Both the position numbers and the translations under genes were made by a program. Positions 3,061 to 45,731 of a stretch of DNA of 64,000 nucleotides are shown here, in pieces; the first letter of the stretch is position 1; every line of letters starts with the position of its first letter. Source of the stretch: Flavobacteriales bacterium UBA1494 (lineage in GTDB: Bacteria; Bacteroidota; Bacteroidia; Flavobacteriales_E; Vicingaceae); contig CAJJAT010000011.1 in NCBI GenBank assembly GCA_905182175.1, forward strand, positions 124,001 through 188,000, written 5' to 3'. Below the pieces are notes generated by a model, which saw only the letters and a program-made list of their open reading frames with translations, ran no database searches and was not told the DNA's origin.

Positions 3061-3443
3061 GAATTAATTTTCAAAGCAATTTCCTCCAATGTTTCCATTG
3101 AAACATTCAATTTAGGTGCAGCAAAATTAATGTCGTTTACATTATTTATTGGGACTAGATGGATATGAGCATGAGAGACCTCTAATCCTATGACTGCTAT
3201 ACCAATTCGTTTGCACTCTATTGCCGATTTTACTTTCTTCGCTACAATTTGTGCGAACTTCCACATTTCAGAGTACTCTTCAGAATCCATATCGAAAATA
3301 TAATCTGTTTCAATTTTTGGAATAACCAAAGTATGTCCTAACGCTAGGGGTTGGATGTCTAAAAACGCAAGAAACCTCTCATTTTCTGCAATTTTAAAAC
3401 TTGGAATTTCTTCACTTATAATTTTCGAGAATATGGTGGCCAT
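3057..3443 (-). CDS. HIT family hydrolase (histidine triad nucleotide-binding protein)
   Basis: Small soluble nucleotide phosphoramidase/hydrolase of the HIT superfamily, 128 residues, usual length for Hint proteins. The histidine triad HAHIHLVP lies at 91-98 and the conserved GHTLVIPK at 36-43; the N-terminal TIFSKIISEEIPS is typical of the Hint branch. Its ATG overlaps the greA stop as TAATG, so greA and this gene are translationally coupled; this greA-HIT order is common in Bacteroidota. The natural substrate is not predictable, with purine nucleoside phosphoramidates (such as AMP-lysine) the known test substrates of the family. Confidence 0.93.
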   Translation of the reverse strand: MATIFSKIISEEIPSFKIAENERFLAFLDIQPLALGHTLVIPKIETDYIFDMDSEEYSEMWKFAQIVAKKVKSAIECKRIGIAVIGLEVSHAHIHLVPINNVNDINFAAPKLNVSMETLEEIALKINS

Positions 3444-3916
3444 TATCTACTAATTTCAATAACCTCAAACTTCACTACCCCTGAAGGAACAATAACTTCT
3501 GCAAATTCCCCAACCTTTTTACCAAGTAAACCTTTAGCTATTGGGGATTCGACTGAGATGCGTTTTTCAGCCATGTTCGCTTCTTTTTCGGAAACAATAG
3601 TATACTGCATTACAGCCCCATTCGTTACGTTTTTAATCTTCACTTTCGATAAGATTAAAACTTTCGTCGTATCCAATTCAGATTCATCAACAACCCTCGA
3701 GTTGGCGACTAAAGTTTGTAGCTTGCTAATCTTCAATTCCAGTAGTCCTTGTGCCTCTTTAGCAGCATCGTACTCCGCATTTTCAGACAAATCTCCTTTA
3801 TCTCTTGCTTCCCCAATTTGCGCGGAGATTGAAGGTCTCTCAACCTTCTTTAAATGGTTTAACTCATCCTTTACTTTTTGTAAACCTTCTTCTGTAAAAT
3901 AACTAATTTGACTCAT
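3443..3916 (-). CDS. greA: Transcription elongation factor GreA
   Basis: GreA rescues backtracked RNA polymerase by stimulating cleavage of the nascent transcript in the secondary channel. The 157-residue length matches the family. The N-terminal coiled coil (about residues 8-75) carries the tip acidic pair in GDLSENAEYDAA (residues 42-53), required for cleavage; the C-terminal FKBP-like domain ends with SPIAKGLLGKKVGE and a short strand. It precedes the HIT gene with a TAATG overlap, and the terminator of the barrel operon lies between it and the next upstream gene, so it is transcribed from its own promoter within the roughly 80-base gap. Confidence 0.97.
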   Translation of the reverse strand: MSQISYFTEEGLQKVKDELNHLKKVERPSISAQIGEARDKGDLSENAEYDAAKEAQGLLELKISKLQTLVANSRVVDESELDTTKVLILSKVKIKNVTNGAVMQYTIVSEKEANMAEKRISVESPIAKGLLGKKVGEFAEVIVPSGVVKFEVIEISR

Positions 3917-3943: not shown

Positions 3944-3976
3944 AAAAAGAGAACCCCTCTCGAGATTCTCTTTTTT
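3944..3976 (-). terminator. Intrinsic terminator of the receptor/giant protein/barrel operon (bidirectional form)
   Basis: A perfect 10-bp stem, AAAAAGAGAA paired with TTCTCTTTTT, encloses a 12-base loop and ends in T runs on both strands. It sits 21 bases beyond the stop of the PorV/PorQ-like gene and before greA, so it probably ends the long minus-strand operon and insulates greA. Confidence 0.75.
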
Positions 3977-3997: not shown

Positions 3998-5080
3998 TTA
4001 GAAAGTAAACCTGACGCCAATTGCATGCGATCCGTCAAACGCTCTAGTAACTCTATACGAGTAATCTAATCCAATTGTTCCCGCACCGTCTTTACTGGTT
4101 GGAACTTCAAGTGTTGCACCCAAAGTTGGTCCGACGGACGTTGTACGCGCCTCAACTTCGTCGCCTCCATCGGTTTCAAATACATATCCTGCTCTTACCA
4201 TGAACTTCTCCTGAAATGCGTATTCTGCTCCAGCCCTAATTTGATCTTTTGTAAAAGAATTTGAAGTAAAAGTACCGCTTGTTGTAATTCTATGTTCCGC
4301 AACAAAGTTACCATTCTCTAACTCTTCAGGCGTAGTCAAAAAGAAATCATACGAGGCTCCTATATTTACCATTGAAGGTAATTCAAAATCGTTCGCTCTC
4401 CTTTCAAATGTAAGTACCTGGTCAGTATTTATTTTTTCAGCTTGAAAAGATAGACCATTTCCTGAATACTTGGTTGTTGGACCCACATTTCTCAACGTAA
4501 TGCCGAATTTAAAAGCATCGAACTTAGCCGTTTTATAATTAACCCCTGCATCTATAGAAATACCAGAAGCATTTACATCAGCTGTTGACTCTGATATTAA
4601 TCTTACTACAACGCCACCACTAATGCTGTTAGAGAATCGTTTTGAATAGGCAACTCCTATATTAAGGTAATTAGGTTGGAAAGTACCAATGCCTCCGTCA
4701 GGTAAATCTGCCGTAGTAATTTGCATTTCGCCAAAACTCATTCTAGTTACGCTTAAACCTAACACTCCAGATTCTCCAACTTTTTTTGCAAATCCAAAAT
4801 TTAGAATATTAATATCGGCTCCACTTAACCATCTAGTGTTTGAGAAGATCATCTCGGTATTTTCTGTAAAAGCCAAACCTGCGATGTTCAAATTCATTGA
4901 CTCAAGCCCCTTTGCGCTAGCAGTATTTGCTCCACCCCAACCTGAACTTCTTGCCCACGGATTGATAAGCAACTCAGAAGCACCTGCCTCACCAGCCCGA
5001 TCCTCATTTCCCGCAAATCCATCAAAAGAAATAAATACTAATGCAATTGCTATTGTATATGTAATGTTTTTCATAATCAT
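3998..5080 (-). CDS. PorV/PorQ family outer-membrane beta-barrel protein
   Basis: A 360-residue outer-membrane barrel of the PorV/PorQ (UPF0164) family. PorV shuttles type IX secretion cargo from the SprA translocon to the attachment machinery; PorQ helps deliver PorZ. The signal peptide covers roughly residues 1-24. The mature start GASELLINPWARSSGWGGAN (about 33-52) is the family signature, followed by alternating amphipathic strands and a terminal aromatic F (GVRFTF), as barrels end. Two nearby ATGs (first and third codon) are equally possible starts. It begins 3 bases after the giant exported protein and is the last gene of the operon, so it may serve that one cargo rather than being the general PorV. 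Not classed further. Confidence 0.8.
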   Translation of the reverse strand: MIMKNITYTIAIALVFISFDGFAGNEDRAGEAGASELLINPWARSSGWGGANTASAKGLESMNLNIAGLAFTENTEMIFSNTRWLSGADINILNFGFAKKVGESGVLGLSVTRMSFGEMQITTADLPDGGIGTFQPNYLNIGVAYSKRFSNSISGGVVVRLISESTADVNASGISIDAGVNYKTAKFDAFKFGITLRNVGPTTKYSGNGLSFQAEKINTDQVLTFERRANDFELPSMVNIGASYDFFLTTPEELENGNFVAEHRITTSGTFTSNSFTKDQIRAGAEYAFQEKFMVRAGYVFETDGGDEVEARTTSVGPTLGATLEVPTSKDGAGTIGLDYSYRVTRAFDGSHAIGVRFTF

Positions 5081-5083
5081 TTT

Positions 5084-8000
5084 TTAGAAATTTGTAAAAT
5101 CAGCCGGTCTTACAGTTCCAAACCATTTAATAATTCGCTCACCAACATTTGGTACTTCTATATGGATAATATAGACTCCACTTGCAATCGGAACACCTAC
5201 TTGATTTGTTACATCCCAATCCAAGAAATTATCAGGACTTGACTTATTATATCTTCGAATTAATGTACCATAGCTGTTATAAATAGTCAAGATACAATTC
5301 TCAGGTAAATTTGTAAATTTCACGGTATTATCAAGCTGAGTTGTCTCATATCCACTTTGTGAATAGTATGGATTTGGAACCACATTCAATTGATCTAATG
5401 CACCTTTCAAATCAGCAGTTTGACGAGTAAAGGAACCCTTTCCAATTGTATTGAACTTATACACAGGCACACCTTTATTTTCTAACACTTGATTTAAAAC
5501 TGAATCCCCTTCTCTAATTGAGCTTTGCTTCGTATCAAATGGCTTGCTGACGTTAACATCAATTTGCACGTCATTAGACAGCAAAGTCTCTCCCGATATG
5601 ACTACAGGTAGCGTAACCCAAGTGCAACTTCCCCAACCTAATTGTGTCAATAAACCGTTTAAACCTCCACCTTGAAGGCTCAATAGCCTTCTCGCTTGCT
5701 TGCCATAGTCATATACCGGCATCTTCGCGTTGAATCTATTATACAAAACAGAGTCTTCGTCATTTTCTGTTTCTCTGAAGATATAAACATAATGCTTACC
5801 TCCCCACACCTGGCTAATAAATCTAGGGTCTATCCCTTCCACAACTGTAGATGTAGGATTCCACAACATATCATCTCCGTTGTTTAAACTATATCTAGAG
5901 TCTTCTCCAAACGCCATGTTAAGTCGATCTCCTGTCTCCTTATTAATTACGTAGCCGGGGAACCATCCCATTCCAAATGCGCTAATAAATGCGGCGTCGC
6001 CTTCTAACGTATCTCCATTTGCCGCAATTGTTGAGTCTGTTTGCGCTCTAGTTAAGTTGCCAAATCCAGTCGTATCAGTAGGATTACCTTCCTTATCTAC
6101 AGACAGTCTTGTCACTTTAACTTGGTTTTTATTGTGCAGATTCTTTGTAGGATTGTTGGGGTCTTGTAACCCATCATCTTTAGTCTCAACAACAGGACAC
6201 CTAGTCCATTTTGTTTTGTCATCCGTAATTACGAATTGGATAGACATTAACCTATCTAATGTTGATCTTCTAACATCAGATAAATCTCTAGCAGGAGCAT
6301 TCAATGCACTTACATCGCCTTGTCCTAATACGAACCTTGTTAAGCCATATGGTGCAATTGTTCCACCTAAAATACCCTCAAAATCTTCATCTGGATCTAA
6401 AAATGGATCCCCGTTAAAACCAAGATAATCTAAAAAGAATCCAGAAGGCGATTGAGAACCTGTCCCAGAAAGAATCCAGTTAAAAGGTCCTTCTGAATCA
6501 TTGTCAGGGATACCAGATAACCATTCTCTTTCGGGATCTTCAAACGTTATGCTTGCAGATAGAAAGCCGTTATTAGTTTCAGGCTCTTGAGTACCAGGCT
6601 CCACACCATCTTTAATCGTAATTGAAATTCCCCATTTAGGATTAAAAATTAACAATTGCTGGTTTAAGAACCCAATGGCCTTATCGGAATAAACAGTATC
6701 TATTCCTCCTCTTCTCCAAATTCTCCAATATGTGGAATCAGAAACCCTCTGATTATCTAAACTGTCGATGAATTGAACATAATACTCTCCCTCTTCAATA
6801 TTAAGTGGATCAACAACAGACACAGAGAACGGGGCTCCACCATCTTGATAAGTAATCTCGTTTACCGTGCTATCTGGAGAATCCCATGCTTTATTTAAAA
6901 GTATACCTTCAACAGTCTCATCTGTCAAAGATAATGCCTCTCCTCCATTGCCTTTACCTTGCAACCTTGTTATTCCTATTGATTCCCCAAAACTGGAATA
7001 AAATACAGTTCCTCCATTTTCAAATATTGGTGGATGAGGGATTCCTGTGAAGGCTGAAACCTCGCCACCAGTTCCGGACTTTCTACTTGGCAAATACACC
7101 CTTGTTTGACCGTCAAAAGCGGGTTTAAATGGATTTGCGCTATCGGGCGCTGCACCTTGCAAATATGGCTTAAACTCGTTATACCCGTATGCAATTGCTA
7201 AATAATAATATGTTTTATAGTTCATTAGCGCAGCATCTCCATCTGCAAATGCATCTAGATTCACGGAAAAACTTCTTTGAATTCCTTCATTAGCCGCTGT
7301 TACTTTTTTAACAGGAAGATTAGCATTTAAAGACTTGTCAAAATTGAAATTTATTAGATCAACAACATCGTCTTTGATATCACACTGAAAAACTAACCTT
7401 GCTTTACTAGGATCCTCTACATCATTTACTGATATTCCGGGACCTGCCAATTGATATACTTGATAGCCTTGGAATCTATATTTATTGTCATAAAAAATAG
7501 GAGGATTAGCATCTGCTAAAAAGTCGGGTGTTACAATATTGGGATCGGATTCCTCGTAAGTTTCATCTGCGTTGTTAGATGTTTCAGGATTTACAATGTA
7601 AAAAATCAACTCTTTATTCAATTCTTGCACCTGTAAATTTGGAGCATCAGGACCACTCAATACTTGAAAGCAATTATCAAATAAGGCTTGCGCCTTGTCA
7701 TCTGCTACTAGCAAATCTGCTACAGACGCCGCAGCTCCGCCACTTTGTGCTTGAGCAAACACAACGCCTACAGTAATGTCATTTACGTTTCCAGGATTTA
7801 GAGTAAAAGGACCGGCTGACTGTAAAAATCTTCTGTCTCCGATCGGGTTTAAAGGCTCGCCTCCTCCTGGATTATCTTCACTCCAGTCTATATTTGTGGG
7901 AATTGTTGTAAATCCATTCTCATCTGTAGTTCCCCAGTGCAATGGGTCACTAGATCCAGGAAACATAAAATCTGTAGGTATGTCTTCAACTCCTGCAGAA

Positions 8001-9340
8001 TTAAATCCATTTCCCCCGTGTCTCATTCTTCTACCGTTCTTCCAAATACCTCTCATGTAGTTGTAATAGTGAACGGCTAAATCAGGATCACCATTTGCCG
8101 CTGTTCCGATGTTGTAATAAACAAACCTTCTCATACCAAATCTTTCGTTGTCCGTAATCAAATCCGGATTTCTATCCGAAGGGTTGAAATAACCTAAGCC
8201 GTTCAATGCCTCTCCCGGTCCTATTCCGTAAGCGTTATTTTTATTATCTGCATCTTGGTATGGTCCCTCGAAGAAATCAATCCCAATCGCTGGAGGATTC
8301 GCACCGTAACCAGCCTGTCCACCTTGTCCTGGATCAAATTCAACTCCATTGTACGCATATCCAAGACCTCTTTCTACATCACATCCAACGTAATCGTCAG
8401 TAGCATCTCCAACATCCGGATCAACGTAACTAGCAAAATAAGTGTTTGTCAAAGTAAACGTAGACCTGTTTATCAACTCAAAATTATAAAAGGTCATGTT
8501 ATTAATCTCATCATTCGTAGCAAAAGCAAAAGCTTGTCCGTGAATCTCCATTCCTATTGAAGGTGCGTTAGATTCAGTATGCAAGTTACCCTTATCATTA
8601 AAAATCCACCAATATGTTTTGTCACCGAATAATGGTCTACGTCCACTTATTGTGCGATCTTCATTAAATTTCCTACAATCAACATCTCCTTTTAAATCGT
8701 AGTATGGATAATCCCCTAACTCCGGCTCATATGATTCGTCTCCACCAACATTCTCGTATGGAGCCAATCTAAAATCCTGACCTTTTGATACATCTCCATT
8801 GCCTGGCCAATCTCTAATAGTGTTAGGCATTTGGTAGTCGGGAAACTTTTCCGTGGCAGTACCTTCACGAATGGATATATTGTAAGCCTTAAACTGCGCA
8901 ACCTCAGATCTTGTTAATTCAAAGAAACGATCATAATCAGCGCAGGTTACATCATCAATTTCCGCCGTCCCAGTTGTATCTAATGGACCAGTATAGTAAT
9001 CCACACCTTGTCCAAATTTACTTACGGCTGCCTTTAGTTGGCCATTTACATCTGTTCCTGCTAACCAAAGTCCACCTGCATATAAAGCAAAACTGTTAGA
9101 CCCTTTTGGCACCTCGTAATCAGCTACTCCATTCGCCCGATCTTGCCACCATATCCCCCCGGCCTCAACTCGTGTTCTAACGTTGTTGAATTCTAGAAAT
9201 ATAAGTCTACTTGCTGGGGCACAACCAGCCGCAAGATTTAACTGAGCTCTCGATTGATTCTTAACTTTTTCTCCCCCCGCACCAAACAATAAAGCTGGAG
9301 CTAAAAGACCTACCAAAATTGAAATTTTTAATCTTTTCAT
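5084..9340 (-). CDS. Giant exported protein (1418 aa) with T9SS-like C-terminal domain
   Basis: A very long secreted protein with no enzyme motif that I recognise. Residues 1-21 form a signal peptide (LLAPALLFGAGG). The mature N-terminus carries the block GGIWWQDRANGVADYEVP (about 61-78) and AGGLWLAG (89-96), a conserved opening of this Bacteroidota family. The body is Asp/Asn/Gly-rich, suggesting calcium-binding or Ig-like repeat folds. The last 110 residues contain VVPNPYY, FTNLPENCILTIYNSYGTLI and a GVPIASGVYIIHIEV strand, the layout of FlgD-like/T9SS C-terminal domains, but the tail ends in GTVRPADFTNF instead of the usual basic KKVVVK-type strand. It lies 21 bases after the receptor gene and 3 before the barrel gene. 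Surface location is inferred. Confidence 0.72.
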   Translation of the reverse strand: MKRLKISILVGLLAPALLFGAGGEKVKNQSRAQLNLAAGCAPASRLIFLEFNNVRTRVEAGGIWWQDRANGVADYEVPKGSNSFALYAGGLWLAGTDVNGQLKAAVSKFGQGVDYYTGPLDTTGTAEIDDVTCADYDRFFELTRSEVAQFKAYNISIREGTATEKFPDYQMPNTIRDWPGNGDVSKGQDFRLAPYENVGGDESYEPELGDYPYYDLKGDVDCRKFNEDRTISGRRPLFGDKTYWWIFNDKGNLHTESNAPSIGMEIHGQAFAFATNDEINNMTFYNFELINRSTFTLTNTYFASYVDPDVGDATDDYVGCDVERGLGYAYNGVEFDPGQGGQAGYGANPPAIGIDFFEGPYQDADNKNNAYGIGPGEALNGLGYFNPSDRNPDLITDNERFGMRRFVYYNIGTAANGDPDLAVHYYNYMRGIWKNGRRMRHGGNGFNSAGVEDIPTDFMFPGSSDPLHWGTTDENGFTTIPTNIDWSEDNPGGGEPLNPIGDRRFLQSAGPFTLNPGNVNDITVGVVFAQAQSGGAAASVADLLVADDKAQALFDNCFQVLSGPDAPNLQVQELNKELIFYIVNPETSNNADETYEESDPNIVTPDFLADANPPIFYDNKYRFQGYQVYQLAGPGISVNDVEDPSKARLVFQCDIKDDVVDLINFNFDKSLNANLPVKKVTAANEGIQRSFSVNLDAFADGDAALMNYKTYYYLAIAYGYNEFKPYLQGAAPDSANPFKPAFDGQTRVYLPSRKSGTGGEVSAFTGIPHPPIFENGGTVFYSSFGESIGITRLQGKGNGGEALSLTDETVEGILLNKAWDSPDSTVNEITYQDGGAPFSVSVVDPLNIEEGEYYVQFIDSLDNQRVSDSTYWRIWRRGGIDTVYSDKAIGFLNQQLLIFNPKWGISITIKDGVEPGTQEPETNNGFLSASITFEDPEREWLSGIPDNDSEGPFNWILSGTGSQSPSGFFLDYLGFNGDPFLDPDEDFEGILGGTIAPYGLTRFVLGQGDVSALNAPARDLSDVRRSTLDRLMSIQFVITDDKTKWTRCPVVETKDDGLQDPNNPTKNLHNKNQVKVTRLSVDKEGNPTDTTGFGNLTRAQTDSTIAANGDTLEGDAAFISAFGMGWFPGYVINKETGDRLNMAFGEDSRYSLNNGDDMLWNPTSTVVEGIDPRFISQVWGGKHYVYIFRETENDEDSVLYNRFNAKMPVYDYGKQARRLLSLQGGGLNGLLTQLGWGSCTWVTLPVVISGETLLSNDVQIDVNVSKPFDTKQSSIREGDSVLNQVLENKGVPVYKFNTIGKGSFTRQTADLKGALDQLNVVPNPYYSQSGYETTQLDNTVKFTNLPENCILTIYNSYGTLIRRYNKSSPDNFLDWDVTNQVGVPIASGVYIIHIEVPNVGERIIKWFGTVRPADFTNF

Positions 9341-9361
9341 AATCTTTCTCTTTAAGGTAAT

Positions 9362-12300
9362 TTAGAAGCTTAACTGCGCTCCTAATCTAATTCTTCTTGG
9401 TAATTCATAATTGAATGGATTCTGTAATCTAAATCCATATTGATCTCTAAACGCCTGCTCACTTACTTGCTGTCTTATCTCATTTTGAAAACGAGCTGCA
9501 TTCAAGTAACCATCATCGTCAGGATTTCCGGTAAAATCATAAACGTTTCGAATATTTTTAGCATTTAATACATTCAACACCTGCAAATAAACATTCAAGT
9601 TAGACTGCTTCTTTCCTTCCTTCCACAATTTCTCATTTGCATCGCTTTTAGACCCCCAGTTAATATTGAATGATCGATCTAATCTTGCATCCATTCTGAC
9701 AGTCCAAGGTAATCTAGAGCCGTTAATATCTCCCTGAACAGGCTGTCTTGTCGCAGATCCATTAGCTAGTTCTACACTACCTGGTAGTGATCTTTGTGTA
9801 TAAGGATTACCTGAACCTGCTATAAGAACAATATTCAATCCTGTATTTTGAAGGATATTCTCCCCAGCCACCCTTGGGCCATTGTAGTCGCTTCCACTTC
9901 CATATCTGTAATCAATTGTTGAAGTAATTTGATGACGCTGATCATACGAGTATGGAAAAATTGTTCTTAAATTCGGTTGGTCCGAAGTAACTAAATTAAG
10001 TGCTGATGTTGATCCTGATCCGGTTCCCTCTGCAAACTGGATAGTATAGTTTATTCTAAGTGAGATATTGTTTGTTCTCCTCATATCATAGTTAATAGTA
10101 AAACCTTTAACTGTTCCAAAATCTAAGTTATCGTACGTTAAGTAATCTTCAGGGAAAGCTCCTATTAGTCTTCTTACCTGAATTTCGTCTCTTTGTTCCC
10201 TGTAATAAGATGAAAGAGATAAAGCTCCATTGCTGCCTAACTTCTGCTTGAATCCAATTTCATATGAAATTGTTTTCGTTGGCTTTAAATTTGGATTATT
10301 AATAATTCTATTGTGATTGGTAATAAAAATTAAATCTAAAGGCTCCAACCCATTCTCACCTGAAGGACGTTGAGTTAAAATGTCATAATTAGCAAAGAAC
10401 GTTGCTTCATCTGATATTGGAAAAGAAAAAGATATTCTGGGCATTAATGTATACTGCGGTGCGTAATCTTTAAAGGATTCAGTTGTCATATCTTGAGACG
10501 GCGTAGTTTGATTTGGATTTACCAACCAAGGAGCTATACTTGAACCAGCCTGCAGTGAAGAAGGATCATTTAATCGAACACCTTGAGCATTGAAAAATTC
10601 ATTTGTTTCAGGGTCTCTATATCCAACTATGCCTGTTGAAGACGGATTCTCAATATCATTCACATATACAACAAAATTATCCCCGATGTTTCCGGGAGTC
10701 TCTCCCAAACCTTGTGACCTAGCATAAGCTACATCTCGTGTTGGAAATAAAGAAAAAGGATCTTTTAATACAGGTTGGTTTGCATCAAATCTGTCTAAAC
10801 GTAACCCAATTCTAAAAATCAAATCATCAAATGCAAACTTATCTTCCAGGTATCCTGCAATATATATCGGCTGATACGCAGGTACTGGTCTTGTTTTGAA
10901 TCCCAATTCGTTTTTTTCAGTAAAGAAATCGTCTAATGATGGTGATGCATTTAATTTTTTTCCTTTGTAATCGTATCCACGGTATAGTAAGTTAATGCTG
11001 TTTGCAGGATTGATCAATTGATCAGCAGAGAAAAAAGAAACGTTGTACAAATCTATATCGTAAGAGTCGAAATCAATAAAATCTATTCCTTCCGTATTTA
11101 ACCCCAAAGCGTTTCTCATGTTGTATGCGAAATAAGTTCTGTTATCTCCATCATATCTTCTCTCAAAAGTAACCGTTGGATCAATTGGGTTTGGAGCAGA
11201 ATAATTAATTGAATAATTTGAAGAATCAATTTGTAGGATATGACTGTTTACAGAGAGACGACCTAAATCCCATAAATCTCTTGGATTCATTTGGTAGAAT
11301 CTTTCGATACGCTGTTCGTACTCAAAACCTAGAACTATGGCGTGGTTTCCAATATCAGCTGAACCCCTACCACTTAATCTAATTTGATCACTTTCTGATT
11401 TACTATAGTTATCTTGAACTGTACCTACAGCAGACCACATATCATAAACTCGACCATCGTTTAAGTCACCTCCATTTATAATTCCGTTAAAACCTTCTAC
11501 ATTTACAGCAGTTGAATATCTTATGTCTCCCTCAGGAAAAAAGCTGTAGAAATTAGAAGTATAATTGGCTAAAGTTGGATTAATATCCGATGCAGTATAG
11601 TCATATGAGATTGGACTATCAAAAGCAGTTAAGAAATTACCCCTGTATTCATTTCCATTGTCTAATGTCACGGGTTTAAAATTATTATCATCAAATGAAA
11701 GCTGAGTATTTGCGACAAACCTTCCTAAATAGCCGTACTTAAAAAAATCATTTTGGTGATTTCTATCTTGGGTCAGCCTACTCCTTCTTGAGAAATCTGC
11801 TTGGATAGAAAAGAAAGCATTTTTAATTAATGACTTGTCTTTTTCTCTAGTATTTTCATCTTCTTCAGGATTTGCGAAGCGCATTAAATATCTACCAAAA
11901 ACTCTAATATCTGAACTTAATCCTTGCTGGTTATTATTGTAATTATACAGTGAGTTTCCTCTACTGTAATTATTATTATTACTATAATTGACAGTACCTC
12001 CAAAAGACAATTTACTTAATTCAGACACCACTATGTCGAACTTACCGTTAATATCAAATCGTATATCATCGTCATTCAGTCTAAAATCAACTTCTTCAAA
12101 ATCATCTCTCGTCAATAATTGGGCTCTTTGAACTACTCCATTATTCCCTTCTTGAAAAATTAGTGGATTAGACCTTAATTGTTGCTCAATATCGTCTTTC
12201 GGCTTAAAGATTGGAGTTACTGATTGACCGCTTAATGAATGACGAATTTCCCCTGTTAATAAGAACCCAAATGGAGAAGTAACCTCCCCGTTCTTATCCT

Positions 12301-13117
12301 TTTTTCTAATAATCGGCCCACCTAAAGCAAATCCAAACAGGTTGAACCCCCATTTGTCTAGCCCTATAGAAGTGGTCTCTCCTGTTTTAAATCCGGAAGA
12401 GAGAACCTCTGCGCTACCAAAATACTCGGTAAATGCCCCTCTTGTGGTAACGGTAGTTACTGCACCTGTTACATCACCATACTGTGCTGACAAACCTCCA
12501 GTCTTAACTGAAACTTCTTCAATTGCAGACTTAGGGAGGTTAGTTGACCCAATTACTTTTACACCATCAATAAATGTTACTGAGCTACCTGATCTTTGTC
12601 CTCTAACAAATGTAGCTCCAGACCCGTCATCTTTAGATGAAATACCATTACCAGCAGCCTTCGTAATATCAGCAACAGAACGGACAGCCATTTGCTGAAT
12701 TTTAGTCCTGTTAAAACTTTCCCCTGTTTCTGTTTGATCAATCTCTATCAACCGCTCAGCATAAATCTCAACTTCTTCGATATCGATACCCTTCGAAAGC
12801 TGTGCATCCAATATTTTTAATTTACCAGAACTTACTGAAACTCCTGTAACAGGTTTTGGCGAAAATCCAACATATGTGTACTTTATATCGTACGTTCCCG
12901 GCGGAATAGGTTTTAGGGTATAAACACCATCAAAATCGGTAGTTGTTGCAAGGATTTGTTCTTTACCTCGGTATAGCACCACATTTGCAAAAGGCACAGG
13001 TTCTCCATTGGCTTTCTCAGTTACTGTGCCTTTAATTGTACCTTGTCCTACCTGAGCGTTTGCAGCAGTTGCAAATCCCATGGCTATCGCTAGCGTTAAG
13101 AGTAATTTTCTTAGCAT
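9362..13117 (-). CDS. TonB-dependent receptor with carboxypeptidase-like regulatory domain
   Basis: A 1251-residue outer-membrane receptor. Signal peptide at 1-21 (ending ANAQV), then a CarboxypepD_reg-like beta sandwich (about 25-115: GTIKGTVTEKANGEPVPFAN, GVYTLKPIPPGTY), then the plug (about 140-235) with SGSSVTFIDGVKVIGS and GLSAQYGDVTGAVTTVTTRG, then a very long 22-strand barrel with extended loops ending in RRIRLGAQLSF. It is not followed by a SusD lipoprotein, so it is not a SusC/D glycan importer. Instead the next genes are a giant exported protein and a PorV/PorQ-like barrel, all under the promoter upstream of this gene. Substrate unknown; it could equally act as part of an export or anchoring assembly. 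Confidence 0.87.
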   Translation of the reverse strand: MLRKLLLTLAIAMGFATAANAQVGQGTIKGTVTEKANGEPVPFANVVLYRGKEQILATTTDFDGVYTLKPIPPGTYDIKYTYVGFSPKPVTGVSVSSGKLKILDAQLSKGIDIEEVEIYAERLIEIDQTETGESFNRTKIQQMAVRSVADITKAAGNGISSKDDGSGATFVRGQRSGSSVTFIDGVKVIGSTNLPKSAIEEVSVKTGGLSAQYGDVTGAVTTVTTRGAFTEYFGSAEVLSSGFKTGETTSIGLDKWGFNLFGFALGGPIIRKKDKNGEVTSPFGFLLTGEIRHSLSGQSVTPIFKPKDDIEQQLRSNPLIFQEGNNGVVQRAQLLTRDDFEEVDFRLNDDDIRFDINGKFDIVVSELSKLSFGGTVNYSNNNNYSRGNSLYNYNNNQQGLSSDIRVFGRYLMRFANPEEDENTREKDKSLIKNAFFSIQADFSRRSRLTQDRNHQNDFFKYGYLGRFVANTQLSFDDNNFKPVTLDNGNEYRGNFLTAFDSPISYDYTASDINPTLANYTSNFYSFFPEGDIRYSTAVNVEGFNGIINGGDLNDGRVYDMWSAVGTVQDNYSKSESDQIRLSGRGSADIGNHAIVLGFEYEQRIERFYQMNPRDLWDLGRLSVNSHILQIDSSNYSINYSAPNPIDPTVTFERRYDGDNRTYFAYNMRNALGLNTEGIDFIDFDSYDIDLYNVSFFSADQLINPANSINLLYRGYDYKGKKLNASPSLDDFFTEKNELGFKTRPVPAYQPIYIAGYLEDKFAFDDLIFRIGLRLDRFDANQPVLKDPFSLFPTRDVAYARSQGLGETPGNIGDNFVVYVNDIENPSSTGIVGYRDPETNEFFNAQGVRLNDPSSLQAGSSIAPWLVNPNQTTPSQDMTTESFKDYAPQYTLMPRISFSFPISDEATFFANYDILTQRPSGENGLEPLDLIFITNHNRIINNPNLKPTKTISYEIGFKQKLGSNGALSLSSYYREQRDEIQVRRLIGAFPEDYLTYDNLDFGTVKGFTINYDMRRTNNISLRINYTIQFAEGTGSGSTSALNLVTSDQPNLRTIFPYSYDQRHQITSTIDYRYGSGSDYNGPRVAGENILQNTGLNIVLIAGSGNPYTQRSLPGSVELANGSATRQPVQGDINGSRLPWTVRMDARLDRSFNINWGSKSDANEKLWKEGKKQSNLNVYLQVLNVLNAKNIRNVYDFTGNPDDDGYLNAARFQNEIRQQVSEQAFRDQYGFRLQNPFNYELPRRIRLGAQLSF

Positions 13118-13164: not shown

Positions 13165-13196
13165 TAAAGATATACATTTATTAAAACGAATAACAA
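13165..13196 (-). promoter_or_regulatory. Bacteroidota-type promoter of the receptor operon
   Basis: Read on the minus strand there is TTG, 21 bases, then TATCTTTA, which matches the phylum consensus TTG-N19-21-TAnnTTTG at all but the final base. It lies about 48 bases upstream of the receptor ATG, giving a leader of about 40 bases. Confidence 0.6.
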
Positions 13197-13246
13197 ATCT
13201 TAACAACTTGTTAGTGCCCCTTTTTAAGGCTTTCTTTTTCATTAAA

Positions 13247-13549
13247 CTATAACCGTTTGAACCATCTTTTTACAAAAAATTCTTTTTTATTATCGTTGTT
13301 TCTTTTAGATTTCCTTCTCGTTTTCTTCATTCGCTTTTGAACCGCTTTTGTCTGCATTTCAATGTGCGCTTTTCGTTTTATTTCTTCTTGTTTCTTGCCT
13401 TCTTTTTTCTTTTCCTCTTTATCTTTACCTAGTTGTTCAGTGCGTTTATCAACAGTTTTTTGAACTTTCCGCTGAGATTGAGCCTGAAGATTCATACCAA
13501 TGACACTAAGTAAAAATAAAACGATGCCTCGAAAAATATTTTTTTTCAT
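13247..13549 (-). CDS. Small, highly basic exported protein (unknown function)
   Basis: A 100-residue protein that I do not recognise by function. A clear signal peptide (residues 1-24, ending NLQAQS) is followed by a mature part of about 76 residues that is almost entirely charged and lysine/arginine-rich (runs such as KEEKKKEGKKQEEIKRK and KKTRRKSKRNN) with no hydrophobic core, ending VKRWFKRL. Such composition implies an unstructured or helical polycation in the periplasm or on the surface. The reading frame is chosen for its ATG, signal peptide and lack of competing frames. It is separate from the receptor operon downstream (gap of about 130 bases holding that operon's promoter). Confidence 0.65.
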   Translation of the reverse strand: MKKNIFRGIVLFLLSVIGMNLQAQSQRKVQKTVDKRTEQLGKDKEEKKKEGKKQEEIKRKAHIEMQTKAVQKRMKKTRRKSKRNNDNKKEFFVKRWFKRL

Positions 13550-13597: not shown

Positions 13598-14044
13598 ATG
13601 ACGAAAATAACCATACTTCCACTAAAAAAACAACTTCTTTTTGTCGGCTTAGTTACGCTGACTTTTTTTAACTCTTGCGACTCAGATGAAGCTTCAAATA
13701 TTCCACTTGTAAATGTGAATTTTCAATACAACATTAACTTACCTGCATACCTTCCTCTTCAGACCATTGGTGGGTCAGTAGAGGTTTTTGGTGGTTCGAG
13801 GGGAATTATTCTTTACCGCGCTTCACAAACTGAAATAAAAGCCTTCGATAGGCATTGCACCTTTGAACCTTCAAACACTTGTGGGTTAGTTTCTGCCGAT
13901 CCGAATCGAATAACTGGCACAGACAATTGCTGCGGCTCTAGCTTTTTACTAACCAGCGGAGGCGTCTCTCAGCCACCCGCTGCAGTTCCTTTAAAGGAAT
14001 ACACCTCAATATTTAATGATCCTATACTTACTGTTACTAACTAA
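13598..14044 (+). CDS. Lipoprotein with degenerate Rieske-like fold
   Basis: A 148-residue exported lipoprotein: N-terminal hydrophobic stretch with the acylation cysteine at C27 (FFNSCDSDEA). The rest has the layout of a Rieske [2Fe-2S] domain: AFDRHCTFEPSNTCG at 82-96 in place of the CxH box and DNCCGSSFLLTSGG at 109-122 in place of the CxxH box, then a PL-EY strand. Histidine ligands are not in the canonical places; cysteines C87, C95, C111 and C112 remain, so either a disulfide-stabilised relic or an unusual metal site. It is monocistronic, convergent with ahcY. The Rieske relationship is by motif spacing; a role in redox is not shown. Confidence 0.62.
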   Translation: MTKITILPLKKQLLFVGLVTLTFFNSCDSDEASNIPLVNVNFQYNINLPAYLPLQTIGGSVEVFGGSRGIILYRASQTEIKAFDRHCTFEPSNTCGLVSADPNRITGTDNCCGSSFLLTSGGVSQPPAAVPLKEYTSIFNDPILTVTN

Positions 14045-39398: not shown

Positions 39399-41426
39399 AT
39401 GAAAAAGAATTACACTTTACTGACAGGGTTGGTTTTAGCTTCTTCTTTCACTTTCGCTCAAGATAGAATGAGCAAAGAGAGAATAGCTGAATTCGAAGTT
39501 CCTGCAGCACTAACATCTGAAGCTAGATCAGTTGATCCTGATTTGTTGAAAGCTCCAAAATTTAACTCAAAATCTTTTGGCGATACGTTGTATTCTCAAG
39601 ACTTTGCAGGCGGTTTGCCAGCAGGATGGTCCGTAGTGAATAATAACCCCAATAACTTTCAGTGGGTTTGGAATACGGTTTACCAAAATGGTCAATTTTC
39701 TGCCGCTACTAACATTATTACATCTACATCTGCAGCAAACGGATTTATGGTAATGACTGGAGATTTCTTTAACACTCCAATTCCTGGGCCAGGAGCTGTA
39801 GCCATGGATTCTTACTTTGAATCAGATGCAATTGATTTAACAAAAGGTGGAACTGTACTTGGCGGGTTTGGTTCTGTTTGGGTAACGTACCAACAAGCTT
39901 TAAGATACTGTTGTAGTAGTGCAAATAGATTGGTTTTACAGGCAAGTACAGATAACTTTATAACTTTTCAGGAGTATGACGCAACCAATGCAATTCCTGT
40001 AAATAGTGCAACTGGAACTGTATCTAATGTAATTAACATCAGCACTGCAGCAGCTAATGCAGGTAGCGTTAAAATTAGATTCGTATCTGAAGGTAATTCT
40101 CATTACTATTGGATGATTGACGATTTTGCTATTGTTGAAGGTCCTTCTAACGATATGGAAATAAGAGATCCTTATTTAGAATTTAATTTTGATTACGTAT
40201 ACAATCCATTTTACGGTCAAACTCCGTATGATTTATTCCCAGCACTACCGTTGTCTGCTTTAGTTTACAACAATGGTTCTAATGATGCTACAGGTGTAAC
40301 ATTAGAAGGTGAAATTTTTCACACAGCTGACCCTTCAGGTGGGCCAGGAATCGGTTCTGTGTATGCTACAGCTTCAACTCCAGTTTCCTTGCTATCAGGA
40401 ACAACAAGAGATACTGCTGACTACACTGTAACAAACTCTCCTAGATTTGTCCCATTACTATTGGGTGAATTCAGAACTGATATGATTCTTACTTCTGACA
40501 GCGTTGATGAAAACCTAGGAAACGAAAGTTATTCCCAAACATTCACAACTTCTGATACCGTCTATGCTAGAGATGATAACGGTTATGGTGGTGGTACCGG
40601 TCCTGGTTCTTACGTAAGAGGTGGACAAACTGGTGGACAAGTACCAGGTGATGCTTTTGGAACAATGTACATAGTAGAGTCTAGAACTGGTAGTAATCAA
40701 ATCACTAAGGTTCCAACATCTATTACATTTGCTGTTTCTGACGATGCTGCAAACATTGGTGTAGAGATTATTCCTACTGTTTGGAGATATGAAGAAGATT
40801 CTCTTTTCGCTCCAGCTTCAGGAACAATTGCAGCTGCATTTTCAGGTGGAGTTGTTGCAACTTCGTTTATTCCTTACACGATTCTTTCAACAGACACAAA
40901 CACATTATTAACTTTACCGTTAGACAACGGTTCAGGCGTATTTAATGGGTTAGATTCTGGTCAGTACATTGTAGGATGGACGGTTTCAAATACAAACGGT
41001 GGTAACAGTTTTGAGGTTTACGAAGATGAGTCTTCAGGTGTATTTCAAGATGCCGTTACATCTTTTATTGATTTAGCCCACTCTCCAGGTTGGGGATGGG
41101 TAAGTGCATTTCCAGTTATTCGATTGAACATGGCTAACCTCCCTATTTCTAGTCGAGTTCAAAATTCAATTGCTAGTTCTACTGAGTTTTCTGTAAATCC
41201 AAACCCAAATAATGGTTTATTTACAGTTAACATTTCTACGAAACAAGCTGTTACTTACAACTTAAATGTGAGAAACATGTTGGGTCAAGAAGTTTACACT
41301 GATCTAATCACTGTAAACGGAACATCAACTGAACAAATGGACTTAACACAATTCAATAAGGGAGTTTACTTTGTAACTCTTGAGAACGGTGCTGAAAAAT
41401 TATTAAAGAAGGTTGTTGTAAAATAA
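39399..41426 (+). CDS. T9SS-secreted choice-of-anchor protein, copy 1
   Basis: A 675-residue surface or secreted protein, the first of three tandem relatives. Signal peptide 1-20 (SSFTFAQ). Residues about 60-250 look like a choice-of-anchor J/cleaved-adhesin lectin-like domain (GWSVVNNNPNNFQWVWNT, RYCCSSANRLVLQAS, YWMIDDFAIVEG), then Ig-like regions (SALVYNNGSNDATGVTLEG; GSGVFNGLDSGQYIVGWTVS). The last 80 residues are a type A T9SS sorting domain: NPNPNNGLFTVNI, NMLGQEVYTD, GVYFVTLENGAEK and a final basic KKVVVK strand. It would cross the outer membrane by T9SS and be tethered or released. Weak -7 box TATCTTTA lies 35 bases before the ATG; a terminator follows. Confidence 0.88.
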   Translation: MKKNYTLLTGLVLASSFTFAQDRMSKERIAEFEVPAALTSEARSVDPDLLKAPKFNSKSFGDTLYSQDFAGGLPAGWSVVNNNPNNFQWVWNTVYQNGQFSAATNIITSTSAANGFMVMTGDFFNTPIPGPGAVAMDSYFESDAIDLTKGGTVLGGFGSVWVTYQQALRYCCSSANRLVLQASTDNFITFQEYDATNAIPVNSATGTVSNVINISTAAANAGSVKIRFVSEGNSHYYWMIDDFAIVEGPSNDMEIRDPYLEFNFDYVYNPFYGQTPYDLFPALPLSALVYNNGSNDATGVTLEGEIFHTADPSGGPGIGSVYATASTPVSLLSGTTRDTADYTVTNSPRFVPLLLGEFRTDMILTSDSVDENLGNESYSQTFTTSDTVYARDDNGYGGGTGPGSYVRGGQTGGQVPGDAFGTMYIVESRTGSNQITKVPTSITFAVSDDAANIGVEIIPTVWRYEEDSLFAPASGTIAAAFSGGVVATSFIPYTILSTDTNTLLTLPLDNGSGVFNGLDSGQYIVGWTVSNTNGGNSFEVYEDESSGVFQDAVTSFIDLAHSPGWGWVSAFPVIRLNMANLPISSRVQNSIASSTEFSVNPNPNNGLFTVNISTKQAVTYNLNVRNMLGQEVYTDLITVNGTSTEQMDLTQFNKGVYFVTLENGAEKLLKKVVVK

Positions 41427-41450
41427 TCCTACTTAATATAGATTAAAGGA

Positions 41451-41479
41451 AGCCACGCATTTTATGCGTGGCTTTTTTT
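41451..41479 (+). terminator. Intrinsic terminator after copy 1
   Basis: A perfect 10-bp stem AGCCACGCAT/ATGCGTGGCT with a TTT loop and a run of six T follows the first copy by 24 bases, so the tandem copies are separate transcripts. Confidence 0.92.
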
Positions 41480-41539
41480 ATTTTCAACAATTTAATTTAA
41501 AAATATGCTATATTTAGATTTAATTTAAAAGAACATACT

Positions 41540-43546
41540 ATGAAAAAAATCTACTTTTTTAGCCTATTATCTTTAATTGCAGTAAGTATTTCTGCGCAGC
41601 AAGCTGTTAAACCTACGGTTCCCCCTGCTGAAGATAACTTGGAAATAGAGGATGTAAGAAATGATTTAGAAACAAATTTTTACTCAAAAAGAAAATATAG
41701 CAATAAAGCATTTGGTGACACATTGTTTTACGAGGATTTTAGAGCAGGTTTAGCAGGTTGGACTGTAATTAATAACAACCCGAATAACTTTGTATGGGAA
41801 TGGAATACCGTGTACAGACAAGGCGCGTTTTCTGGTACAAGAACCGAAATCAAATCGACAACCGCTGGAAATGGCTTTATGTCATTACCATCAGATTTTT
41901 ACAATACACCGACACCCTCTACAGGTAGGGTTGGAATGGATACTTATTTTCAATCCGATACTATTTTTATTACCCCAACACCGAGCGTTTGGGTAACCTA
42001 TCAGCAGTATGTAAGATTCTGTTGTAACTCTGGGAACAGATTGGTACTGCAGGTGAGTACAGATGACTTCGTCACCTTCACTGAGTTTGATGCAATAGAT
42101 GGGTTACCGGTAAATGCAGGTAACACTACAAATACTGTTGGTGGCGCTACCAACATCATCAACATTAGCACAGCAGTAGCAAATGCACCAAACTTTAAGG
42201 TAAGGTTTTATGCTGAAGGTAATGGCCGCTATTTTTGGATGATTGATGACTTTGCTGTCATAGAAGGAGTTGAAAACGATGTGGAATTAAGAACTCCTTA
42301 CTTAGAGTTCAACTTCGATTACGCTTACAATCCATTTTACGGTCAAATTCCTTATAATTTATTTACTCCACTTCCACTTTCGGGTTTCGTCTACAATAAT
42401 GGTTCAAATGATTTAACAGGTGTAAAAATAGAAGGAGATATTTTCCACACAGCATCTGCAAATGCAGGACCAGGTGTTGGTCTAATTTATTCTACAGCCT
42501 CAGCACCTTTACCTTTGCAATCAGGCGTAACAAGGGATACTGCTGATTATGTGGTGACAAACAACCCGAGGTTTGTTCCTACCATTTTAGGTGAATTCAG
42601 AGTTGACATGGTCGCTACTTCTGATAGTGTTGATGGTAACTTAGGAAATGAAACTTATTCCCAAACATTCACTACTTCTGATACCATTTTCGCAAGAGAT
42701 GATAACGGTTATGCAGGAGGAACAGGTCCCGGATCGTATGTAAGAAATAGCCAAACCGGTGGCACTGTTGTCGGAGATCGTTTTGGTACAATGTACGTTG
42801 TAGAATCTAGAACTGGTAATGGTGGAAGTGCAAATGTTCCTACTTCTATTACGTTTGCTGTATCTGACGATCCAGCTAACATTGGCGTAGAAATCGTCCC
42901 TAAAATTTGGTCGTATAATGAAGACTCATTATTTACTGCTACCGGGAGCATTGCTGCTGCATTCGCAGGAGGAGAAGTAGCTTCTGCTTTCATTCCTTAT
43001 AGTATCTTATCTACTGATACAAACACACTATTAACGTTACCGTTAGACAACGGTTCAGGCGTAATAAATGGGTTGGATTCAGGACAGTATGTGGTTGGCT
43101 GGGAAGTAACCAATACAAATGGCGGAAACAGTTTTGAAGTTCAGGAAGATGCCTCTTCCGGCATATTCCAAGACAATGTGACTTGTTTTATCGATTTAGC
43201 TCACTCTCCAGGATGGGGATGGGTAGATAGAAACCCAGTCATTAGACTAAACTTTGGAACCCCTACCTTTATAGGTCTAAATAATGTTACCAACTTTTCA
43301 ACTGAGTTCAATATCACTCCAAACCCAAATAACGGTTTGTTCACAATGACGGTTACTTCAAAAGAAACGGTGAATTACAATGTGACTGTAAAAAACATGT
43401 TAGGACAGCAAGTTTACGCTGATCTAATTGCTGTAAATGGAACTGTAACTGAGCAAATGGATTTAACACAATTCGAAAAAGGTGTTTACTTTGTAAGCCT
43501 TGAAAATGGTGCTGAGAAAATTTTAAAGAAGGTAGTTGTAAAATAA
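41540..43546 (+). CDS. T9SS-secreted choice-of-anchor protein, copy 2
   Basis: A 668-residue paralogue of the preceding gene with the same order of parts: signal peptide (SISAQ), J-type anchor domain (GWTVINNNPNNFVWEWNT, YFWMIDDFAVIEG), Ig-like regions, and a T9SS type A sorting domain ending in KKVVVK. Divergence is strongest near the N-terminus and in residues 90-160, whereas the segment around DTNTLLTLPLDNGSGV and the FIDLAHSPGWGW motif is nearly unchanged, also at the DNA level. Function is likely adhesion or glycan binding; no enzyme motif is visible. Confidence 0.88.
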   Translation: MKKIYFFSLLSLIAVSISAQQAVKPTVPPAEDNLEIEDVRNDLETNFYSKRKYSNKAFGDTLFYEDFRAGLAGWTVINNNPNNFVWEWNTVYRQGAFSGTRTEIKSTTAGNGFMSLPSDFYNTPTPSTGRVGMDTYFQSDTIFITPTPSVWVTYQQYVRFCCNSGNRLVLQVSTDDFVTFTEFDAIDGLPVNAGNTTNTVGGATNIINISTAVANAPNFKVRFYAEGNGRYFWMIDDFAVIEGVENDVELRTPYLEFNFDYAYNPFYGQIPYNLFTPLPLSGFVYNNGSNDLTGVKIEGDIFHTASANAGPGVGLIYSTASAPLPLQSGVTRDTADYVVTNNPRFVPTILGEFRVDMVATSDSVDGNLGNETYSQTFTTSDTIFARDDNGYAGGTGPGSYVRNSQTGGTVVGDRFGTMYVVESRTGNGGSANVPTSITFAVSDDPANIGVEIVPKIWSYNEDSLFTATGSIAAAFAGGEVASAFIPYSILSTDTNTLLTLPLDNGSGVINGLDSGQYVVGWEVTNTNGGNSFEVQEDASSGIFQDNVTCFIDLAHSPGWGWVDRNPVIRLNFGTPTFIGLNNVTNFSTEFNITPNPNNGLFTMTVTSKETVNYNVTVKNMLGQQVYADLIAVNGTVTEQMDLTQFEKGVYFVSLENGAEKILKKVVVK

Positions 43547-43610
43547 TTATACGTTAAACACATTGAGGAAAAATGGTAGTTCTTCAATAAATAATACAAT
43601 TATATTTCAG

Positions 43611-43646
43611 AAGGCCCCATTCTATATTTTAGAATGGGGCCTTTTT
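43611..43646 (+). terminator. Intrinsic terminator after copy 2
   Basis: A perfect 13-bp stem AAGGCCCCATTCT/AGAATGGGGCCTT with a 7-base loop and a short T tail lies 64 bases after the second copy's stop. Confidence 0.9.
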
Positions 43647-43743
43647 GATCAACCATGAATCCGAATACTTCAACCATGAATTTGGTGTTCCGTTAGACCT
43701 CATTTCTCCCTTCTTTTGATATTGAATTTTAAAACCTTTCCTT

Positions 43744-45731
43744 ATGAAAAAGAAACACATCCTACTTTTGAATTTTTAATTTTGCTCAATAATTGGCTTT
43801 GCTCAAGACAAAATCAATCAAAAAACAACTACCCACAAGTGCAAGCCGCGCTTTCAGGTCAAGCAAAAAGCGTTGATCCTGATTTCTTAAAAGCTGCAAA
43901 ATTTAATTCTAAAGCTTTTGGTGATACCCTATATTATCAGAGTTTTGATAGTACTGGTTGGTCCATTTTTAATAACAATCCAAACAATTTCCTATGGAGA
44001 TGGGACACTATTTATCCAAATGGTCAATTCTCAAATCCAAATAACGTAATTACATCTACTACAGCTTCGAATGGGTCTATGGTTTTACCAGCAGATTTTT
44101 ATACTACTCCAGTAACTATGGGAGTTTCCATGTCTGCGGCTTTTGAGTAAGACAGTCTCTATTTAACAAAGAATGGTCTTTATCCCAATGGAATTTCGAG
44201 CGTATGGGTAACCTATCAACAAGCCGTGAGATACTGTTGTTCCGGCGCAAATAGACTTGTTTTACAAGTGAGCGCTGACAACTTTGTTTCATTCCAAGAA
44301 TACGATTCTTCAAATGCTATTGCAGTTAATGCTGCTAGCGGAACAATAATCAACACTATTAATACAAGCACCGCCGCAGCTAATGCAACTAATGTTACAA
44401 CTAGATTTCTCGCCGATGGCGTGACTCATTACTATTGGATGATTGATAATGTTGCTGCTGTTGAAGGACCTGAAAAGGACGCTGCGTTACAGAGTCCTTA
44501 TATAGAATTTAATTATACTTATGCATACAATCCTTTTTATGATCAAACACCTTATGACCTTTTCCCTCCACTAAGATTAACCAGCTTAAATTACAATAAT
44601 GGTTCTACTACTCAAACTAACTTACGTTTAGAAGGTAAATTTATTCGCGTATCGGAACCTTCAGGTAATTCAGGAGTAGGAATTGTTCACAGTACCACTT
44701 CTTCTGCCATCCAACTAAATCCATACCAATTTGACACAGCCATAACTACCCACAGCACTTTCTCCCTAGTCTATTGGGAGAATGCAGAGTAGACCTTAAA
44801 GTTGACTCAGATAACTTAGATGAAAATCCGTTCAATAATTTTTACAGTCAATATTTTTCAACTTCTGATACCATTTTCGCAAGAAATCATAATGGCTATG
44901 CTGACAAAACGGGTCCAAGATGTTATGTTAGAGCGTCAAACCGTTGGTACTATTGTCAGAGATCGATTTGGTACAATGTACGTTGTAGGATCTAGAACCG
45001 GTGATCGTAGAATTGCAAATGTGCCTACTTCTATTACGTTTGCTCTATCTAACGATCCGGCTAACATTGGCGTAGAGATCAATCCTAAACTCTGGTCGTA
45101 CAAAAAAATCCATTATTTACAGCAACTGGGAGTATTGCTGCAACCTTTTCCGGAGGTGAAGTGGCCTCGTCACTCATTCCTTATACCATCTTATCTGCTG
45201 ATACAAACACCTTACTAACTCTTCCTTTAGACAATGGTCCTGCCGTGTTTAATGGTTTAGATTCTGGTCAGTACGTTGTAGGTTGGGAAGTTACCAACAC
45301 AAATGGTGGCAACAGTTTTGAAGTTTATGAAGATGCTTCATCAGGCCGATTCCAGCCACTTGCTACTTGTTTCATTGATTTAGCGCATCAACCCGGATGG
45401 GGTTGGTTAGATGCTAACCCAGTTATTCGTTTAAATATGGGAAATCTTCTATCTACTTCCTTAAGATCTGAAGCTGATAGCAATATGAACATATCAGTTC
45501 AACCGAACCCATCAAATGGGGAATTCAGTTTAACATTTCAAACCAATGAAAAAAACCACTTTCCAACTTACTATTCGAAATACAATAGGCCAATTGGTTC
45601 ACTCGGAAAAAATGACTTTTCAAGGAATAAATACAAAACAATTTAATTTTTCAGATTTAGAAAAAGGAGTCTATTACATCTCATTGCAGAATGAATCAGA
45701 AAATAGAGTTGAAACGGTGATTTTGTACTAA
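43744..45731 (+). pseudogene. Decayed third copy of the T9SS-secreted choice-of-anchor protein
   Basis: The whole length of a third paralogue can be traced, but not as one frame. The ATG and signal peptide (MKKKHILLLNF, then stop at codon 12, then CSIIGFAQD) lead to a shift near 43830 into SVDPDFLKAAKFNSKAFGDT; a TAA at 44148 replaces the residue after AAFE; further shifts fall near 44770, 44940, 45110-45160 and 45550. The C-terminal sorting domain (NPSNGEFSLTFQ, DLEKGVYYISLQNESENR) is still readable but split. Two in-frame stops and about five frameshifts mean no functional protein. Codons and spacing match copies 1 and 2, so it is a local tandem duplicate, not an insertion. Confidence 0.93.

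Follow-up and report, generated by a model that had tools for sequence, protein, structure and literature searches.

Results

A three-gene operon upstream of greA

Within the window (the whole stretch of 64,000 nucleotides analysed, lying on contig C11 of a 3.3 Mb host genome, G000), three adjacent minus-strand open reading frames encode a TonB-dependent receptor (TBDR), a giant exported protein and an outer-membrane barrel (Table 1); we refer to them together as the trio and to their order as T-G-B. A first-pass annotation of this DNA had described three genes separated by 21 and 3 nucleotides, and the coordinates of the reading frames bear this out (21 nt between the TBDR and giant genes, 3 nt between the giant and barrel genes). 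A Sec-type signal peptide can be recognized by eye in all three products. The same annotation placed one promoter in front of the genes and one terminator behind them. Both are readable by eye, and A/T runs border the putative hairpin on both sides; a consensus scanner, however, listed neither the promoter-like nor the terminator-like sequence of the trio, so that this part of the annotation is best regarded as plausible. Downstream, greA is followed on the same strand by a gene of the HIT family, named from its sequence.

Two small genes lie on the upstream side. Just upstream of the putative promoter, positions 13247-13549 (minus strand) encode an apparently exported protein of 100 residues, very rich in Lys and Arg and without a family. 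Divergent from the operon, positions 13598-14044 (plus strand) encode a small lipoprotein-like protein of 148 residues, Rieske-like by eye (CTFEP ... NCCGSSF), for which no significant Pfam match was obtained; a homologue occurs upstream on the opposite strand at 54 of 125 trio loci.

Table 1. Features of the trio locus, with positions in the window
Feature	Position	Strand	Basis
TonB-dependent receptor (TBDR), 1251 aa	9362..13117	-	ORF; Pfam/NCBIfam
Giant exported protein, 1418 aa	5084..9340	-	ORF; signal peptide by eye
PorV/PorQ-family outer-membrane barrel, 360 aa	3998..5080	-	ORF; NCBIfam; predicted fold
Giant, N-terminal module (residues ~36-575)	7616..9235	-	Common to other proteins of the genome
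Giant, C-terminal sorting-like domain (last 109 residues)	5084..5413	-	Profile matches; ends RPADFTNF
Putative Bacteroidota-type promoter (TTTG, 21 nt, TATCTTTA)	~13165..13197	-	By eye
Putative terminator hairpin (AAAAAGAGAA ... TTCTCTTTTT) between barrel gene and greA	~3944..3976	-	By eye
greA, downstream syntenic neighbour, outside the module	3443..3916	-	Named from sequence

The barrel and the receptor

The barrel matches the PorV/PorQ family model NF033709 with 155.9 bits against a curated cut-off of 90, and its orthologues do so in 35 of 35 cases. It falls far short of the equivalog models for PorV (NF033710, 87.4 versus 250 bits), PorQ (NF033711, 78.9 versus 220 bits) and PorV2 (NF052325, 33.6 versus 325 bits), as well as of the PorP/SprF family TIGR03519 (25.1 versus 90.55 bits). 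For BamG (NF053685, cut-off 250 bits) the barrel of the window gave no match at E<=0.001, and one of the 35 orthologues matched weakly. We considered and rejected the possibility that it is the PorV, PorQ or PorV2 of this genome, since all three are encoded elsewhere (440, 377 and 460 bits, respectively). The structure predicted with AF2 (pLDDT 86.8) has a FadL-like fold nearest to PorV (top PDB entries 8gl6_F and 6h3i_F); in the fold ranking Flavobacterium johnsoniae PorV comes first, including the translocon with a RemA sorting domain bound, and FadL follows. When the barrel profile was compared with PDB sequences, PorV was the sole match (E 4.8e-17). By these profile scores the barrel is a distinct subfamily of PorV/PorQ. 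A second set made of a TBDR and a PorV-family barrel occurs in the same genome (L011, G000:C1:185056-188940), where the next gene, in the place of the giant, encodes a lipoprotein resembling an NHL-type beta-propeller. Genomes outside the class (G399, G530 and others) have up to 25 PorV-family barrel matches each, the trio barrel possibly among them.

The receptor is composed of a signal peptide, a CarboxypepD_reg domain, a Plug and a TonB barrel according to Pfam and NCBIfam, and it passes the cut-offs of both receptor families (PF07715, 25.6 versus 23.9 bits; PF00593, 45.5 versus 27 bits). No SusC/RagA model is found among its NCBIfam matches and no susD gene in the operon; its identification as SusC was rejected, and the operon does not encode a SusCD pair. 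In a profile comparison (E<=1e-60), one trio-type TBDR was found in each of four trio genomes and in none of 20 genomes lacking the trio, although these 20 still hold 9 to 101 first-look TBDR candidates each.

The giant and its C-terminal domain

No Pfam or NCBIfam domain was detected in the giant above cut-off, and a search of plasmid records with this protein gave no match. Its N-terminal module recurs in other proteins of the same genome that bear canonical type A sorting domains. Residues 36-1235 were modelled as a single chain (pLDDT 78.8, pTM 0.71), the C-terminal domain lying outside the model. A fold search with this model returned weak PDB matches with low TM-scores, the best being a dextran dextrinase (E 2.4e-4), followed by sugar phosphorylases, GH116 and fibronectin-type domains; these matches may hint at a carbohydrate-related sandwich and fall short of a function. 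An assignment of the giant as a lipoprotein was rejected by eye. It has an invariant C40 in an AAGC motif, yet this cysteine lies some 20 mostly polar residues beyond the signal peptide's hydrophobic core, so that no lipobox adjoins the signal peptide.

The C-terminal domain, which comprises the last 109 residues, had been said to resemble a sorting domain, and this has held up: the profiles of PorZ, of type A domains (TIGR04183) and of PorU match the C-terminal domains of 35 of 35 orthologues at E<=1, and the best profile matches in the PDB are PorZ, then PorU. The domain nevertheless remains below the cut-offs for type A membership (TIGR04183, 21.3 bits as an isolated domain and 15.5 in the whole protein versus 23; PF18962, cut-off 27), does not figure among the genome's 118 PF18962 matches, and also scores too low for type B (PF13585, CHU_C, 14.9 versus 27 bits). 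The claim that it lacks a basic final strand was mistaken. The last strand carries a near-invariant Lys (K in 122 and R in 3 of 125 domains). In 124 of the 125 domains the tail beyond this position is exactly 13 residues long, and likewise in 124 it ends with Phe, Tyr, Leu or Ile. Canonical type A domains of the same genome, in contrast, stop a few residues past the last strand. Both between genomes and when operon and orphan copies of one genome are compared, this domain is the most conserved, or nearly the most conserved, part of the giant. With a domain below cut-off and a tail of fixed length, the giant was rejected as an ordinary type A cargo. By its profile matches, its C-terminal domain is clearly related to the T9SS type A sorting domain and closest to those of PorZ and PorU. 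The earlier suggestion of a distinct signal class is reasonable in a narrower sense, that of a type A subtype with a distinctive tail; its kinship with type A stands.

Elsewhere in the window, three PF18962 type A sorting domains are spaced by ~2.1-2.2 kb on one strand (~41196-45722, plus strand), which is likely a tandem array of T9SS proteins of ~680 residues each.

Occurrence of the trio across genomes

Our sample of the class of the host comprised 296 genomes at least 90% complete, many of them metagenome assemblies. The giant has matches in 243 of these genomes (240 at E<1e-50), and a strong trio-type barrel (E<1e-30) is present in 235, weaker matches being other PorV-type barrels. Comparing the tables by hand at these two thresholds, which were picked after viewing them, we counted 235 genomes with giant and barrel, five with the giant only (G052, G118, G180, G206 and G287) and 56 with neither; the score gap around the thresholds is wide, the exceptions being G287 and G313 (1e-27, 3e-29) and G112 (5e-34). 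The first-pass annotation had suggested looking for joint occurrence in a phylogenetic profile, and this is indeed observed, a barrel without the giant being found in 0 of 296 genomes. Whole families of the class have no trio, which is thus not generally essential. Orphan giants without a barrel of their own also exist; they keep the sorting-like domain, and where this was checked the same genome also holds a trio. The gene sprA was found in 288 of the 296 genomes, and seven of the eight genomes without it also lack the trio, the single apparent exception (G100, 95% complete) having a trio and no sprA match. Since many genomes with a T9SS have no trio, the latter is at most a client of this system and not a core part.

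The gene order is conserved. Within the taxonomic order of the host, matches to all three proteins occur in the 46 genomes, and the genes are adjacent in every intact locus fetched. In G009 the receptor and barrel genes lie at two contig ends with the giant in the gap between them, so that its absence reflects the assembly. All intact loci of the host's own family are arranged as T-G-B, as are 32 of 40 fetched loci of the class, from many families; the remaining loci are giant copies with neither partner. Among 80 named loci, which include Acidiluteibacter ferrifornacis and Crocinitomix catalasitica (both of which carry the trio), Fluviicola, Lentimicrobiaceae and rumen Bacteroidales, the order holds for 56 of 81 giants, most others being orphan or contig-cut, and the median gaps are 21 and 22 nt. 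In other Bacteroidota classes T-G-B was found at no fewer than 16 of 20 loci, with shorter giants (~1050-1290 aa); 20 genomes of this kind, chosen for having a relative of the giant, contain at most two trio-type barrels each (>200 bits) among 3-25 PorV-family matches. After removal of duplicates, the arrangement recurs in order at 121 non-redundant loci, far beyond chance. Within the class, greA lies at most 1 kb downstream in 94 of the 100 loci that offer sufficient sequence (the gap has a median of 86 nt among unique loci having greA), and it was found within this distance at none of the loci of other classes. Conserved order and the downstream greA indicate that the locus is ancient and fixed; within the class, the trio is a vertically inherited fixed locus and not a mobile cassette.

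Several relatives (L055-L059, L064-L070) show contig breaks inside or beside the giant gene, and some of the contig ends share identical stretches of 76-141 bp; these would be near-identical ends of several gene copies, which perhaps recombine. On contig PACT01000037.1, a TBDR-giant pair (L146) and a giant-barrel pair (L158) lie ~40 kb apart in opposite orientation, and their giants are identical or nearly so across the last 600 residues. This corresponds either to an inversion between giant copies or to a misassembly.

Distance co-variation between parts of the proteins

Since the trees all agree, plain correlations of pairwise distances are uniformly high (all r>0.84) and uninformative; the parts could be told apart with partial correlations only. 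We therefore used rank-based partial correlations on 104 non-redundant trios of the class, with subsampling, the distances sharing phylogeny. The barrel is correlated with the C-terminal domain of the giant (0.29, subsample range 0.19-0.41) and with its distal middle (0.29), as opposed to its N-terminus (-0.01). The C-terminal domain is its best giant partner in only 47% of the subsamples; in the remainder this place goes to another part of the giant, for the most part the distal middle. For the barrel of the TBDR, the best giant partner in all subsamples, at 0.33 (range 0.26-0.40, versus ~0.1 for the middle), is the N-terminal module in its first part, but this barrel also correlates with the C-terminal domain (0.21), so that the split is not clean. 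The pattern, indirect and no substitute for a contact map, suggests that the outer-membrane barrel co-varies with the C-terminal half of the giant, co-variation being what the first-pass annotation had proposed to look for, and the TBDR with its N-terminal domain. The latter tendency favours an arrangement in which the giant would act as a cap or present a ligand over one in which the receptor would be the anchor.

Discussion

From the co-inheritance, gene order, locus, family membership, C-terminal signature and distance pattern observed here, we propose with moderate confidence that the trio forms one surface complex assembled with the help of the T9SS, the barrel acting as shuttle and anchor and the giant lying over the TBDR. 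For its export the giant would use first Sec and then the general SprA translocon, as its signal peptide, its sorting-like domain and the presence of sprA suggest. Its C-terminal domain would be received by the dedicated neighbouring barrel and kept there uncleaved, this barrel then serving as shuttle and permanent anchor as PorQ does for PorZ and PorP for PG1035. The N-terminal half would extend over the dedicated TBDR, presenting or gating a ligand for TonB-dependent uptake. This is the weakest step, and what points to uptake is the family to which the receptor belongs. A single shuttle serves orphan cargo of type B (PMC12618676), and orphan giants would likewise use the barrel of the operon. 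A shuttle-anchor barrel with a giant bridging to the receptor is thus conceived by analogy with PorZ-PorQ, with PG1035-PorP, described in a complex with PorE (PMC9143113), and with type B domains, whose cognate shuttles are encoded downstream (PMC12618676).

The strongest competitor, which we regard as unlikely, is that the barrel is a transient dedicated shuttle that takes the giant from SprA to cleavage by PorU and then to release or LPS anchoring, the TBDR being co-regulated without contacting the giant. Such a scheme suits a C-terminal domain related to type A, and dedicated shuttles do exist for type B cargo (PMC12618676). However, the closest relatives of the domain are those of PorZ and PorU, which are retained: the sorting domains of PorU and PorZ are reported to stay uncleaved, on PorV and PorQ respectively (PMC10202324). 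A tail of fixed length also suggests a lasting contact, as does the fact that the barrel co-varies with both the distal middle and the C-terminal domain, and the distances of the TBDR follow the N-terminal domain of the giant.

Less probable still is a complex for envelope assembly or outer-membrane housekeeping rather than uptake, comparable to the BAM dome of Bacteroidota, in which the FadL-like barrel BamG holds surface proteins (PMC12578637). Beyond this precedent and the FadL fold of the trio barrel, the synteny of the greA locus across the class and the presence of one or two trio-type barrels per genome outside it would fit such a function. The barrel nevertheless belongs to the PorV/PorQ family, a single weak BamG match among 35 members notwithstanding, and whole families of the class do without the trio.

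We give little credence to a scheme in which the barrel transports hydrophobic ligands in the manner of FadL, the giant feeds both channels as a surface receptor or scavenger, and the general PorV exports the giant. FadL structures do rank after PorV in the fold search. Moreover, type A domains are reported as all recognized by PorV (PMC12618676); as the domain of the giant is type A-related, the general PorV might handle it. Against a transporter, the barrel profile matches PorV alone in the PDB, all 35 members fall in the PorV/PorQ family, and the barrel co-varies with the sorting-like domain. Finally, it is hardly credible that the gene order reflects mere co-regulation without a complex in a slowly rearranging region beside greA, for although the neighbourhood of greA, the HIT family gene and SAHH is itself conserved, the genes are lost jointly (the barrel by itself occurs in no genome, and the TBDR disappears along with the other two) and the trio is intact in other classes, at loci that showed no greA in the first 1 kb downstream.

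The surface complex that we favour shares traits with several known systems. As in the PorZ-PorQ pair of the T9SS attachment complex (PMC10202324), a sorting-domain protein would stay uncleaved on a PorV/PorQ-family barrel, and the C-terminal domain of the giant is most similar to that of PorZ; however, the trio barrel reaches 79 versus 220 bits for PorQ, the genome has a separate PorQ, a TBDR is adjacent, and the giant has no PorZ match outside its C-terminal domain. PorV with its type A cargo resembles the trio in the family and fold of the barrel and in the type A-related domain, but here the barrel gene adjoins that of the cargo, its PorV score is low (87 versus 250), PorV is encoded elsewhere, and the giant has its own C-terminal tail. 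Type B cargo with PorP/SprF barrels (SprB-SprF, PG1035-PorP; PMC9143113, PMC12618676) are probably alike in that the shuttle gene directly follows that of the cargo and that orphan cargo may share a shuttle, whereas the trio barrel is of the PorV/PorQ family (PorP/SprF, 25 versus 90.55 bits) and the domain of the giant is type A-like (CHU_C, 14.9 versus 27). The SusCD uptake pair likewise combines a TonB receptor and a large surface partner in one operon; the trio differs in having neither a SusC/RagA match nor SusD, in a giant that looks T9SS-exported and has no lipobox, and in occupying one fixed locus in the class. With the BAM dome (BamG-BamH; PMC12578637) the trio has in common a FadL-fold barrel and a large extracellular assembly, unlike which its operon has no BamA, the barrel of the window no BamG match, and the giant is not a lipoprotein.

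A search of open-licence papers revealed none whose title and abstract describe the trio, no paper combining PorV, Ignavibacteria and TonB receptors, and nothing on SusD-less receptors. Barrels dedicated to a cargo are known; as far as we can tell, what is new is one from the PorV family that is dedicated to a type A-like domain and accompanied by a TonB receptor. A more ambitious proposal, which we advance tentatively and consider possible rather than probable, is that the trio represents a third way of building a TonB-coupled surface complex, and one ancestral to Bacteroidota. The cap would be a giant T9SS-exported protein instead of a SusD lipoprotein, and its own PorV-family barrel would hold it by means of a new sorting-domain subtype, whose hydrophobic-ended tail is fixed at 13 residues.

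The trio provides single-locus targets in cultured species and is thus directly testable. This three-gene surface module occupies a single locus in about 80% of the genomes sampled from the class, and it recurs in other Bacteroidota classes. If our reading is true, cognate pairing of barrel and cargo in the T9SS would extend beyond type B domains, type A-like domains would also have dedicated shuttle-anchors, and the TonB receptors of Bacteroidota would have a type of partner besides SusD.
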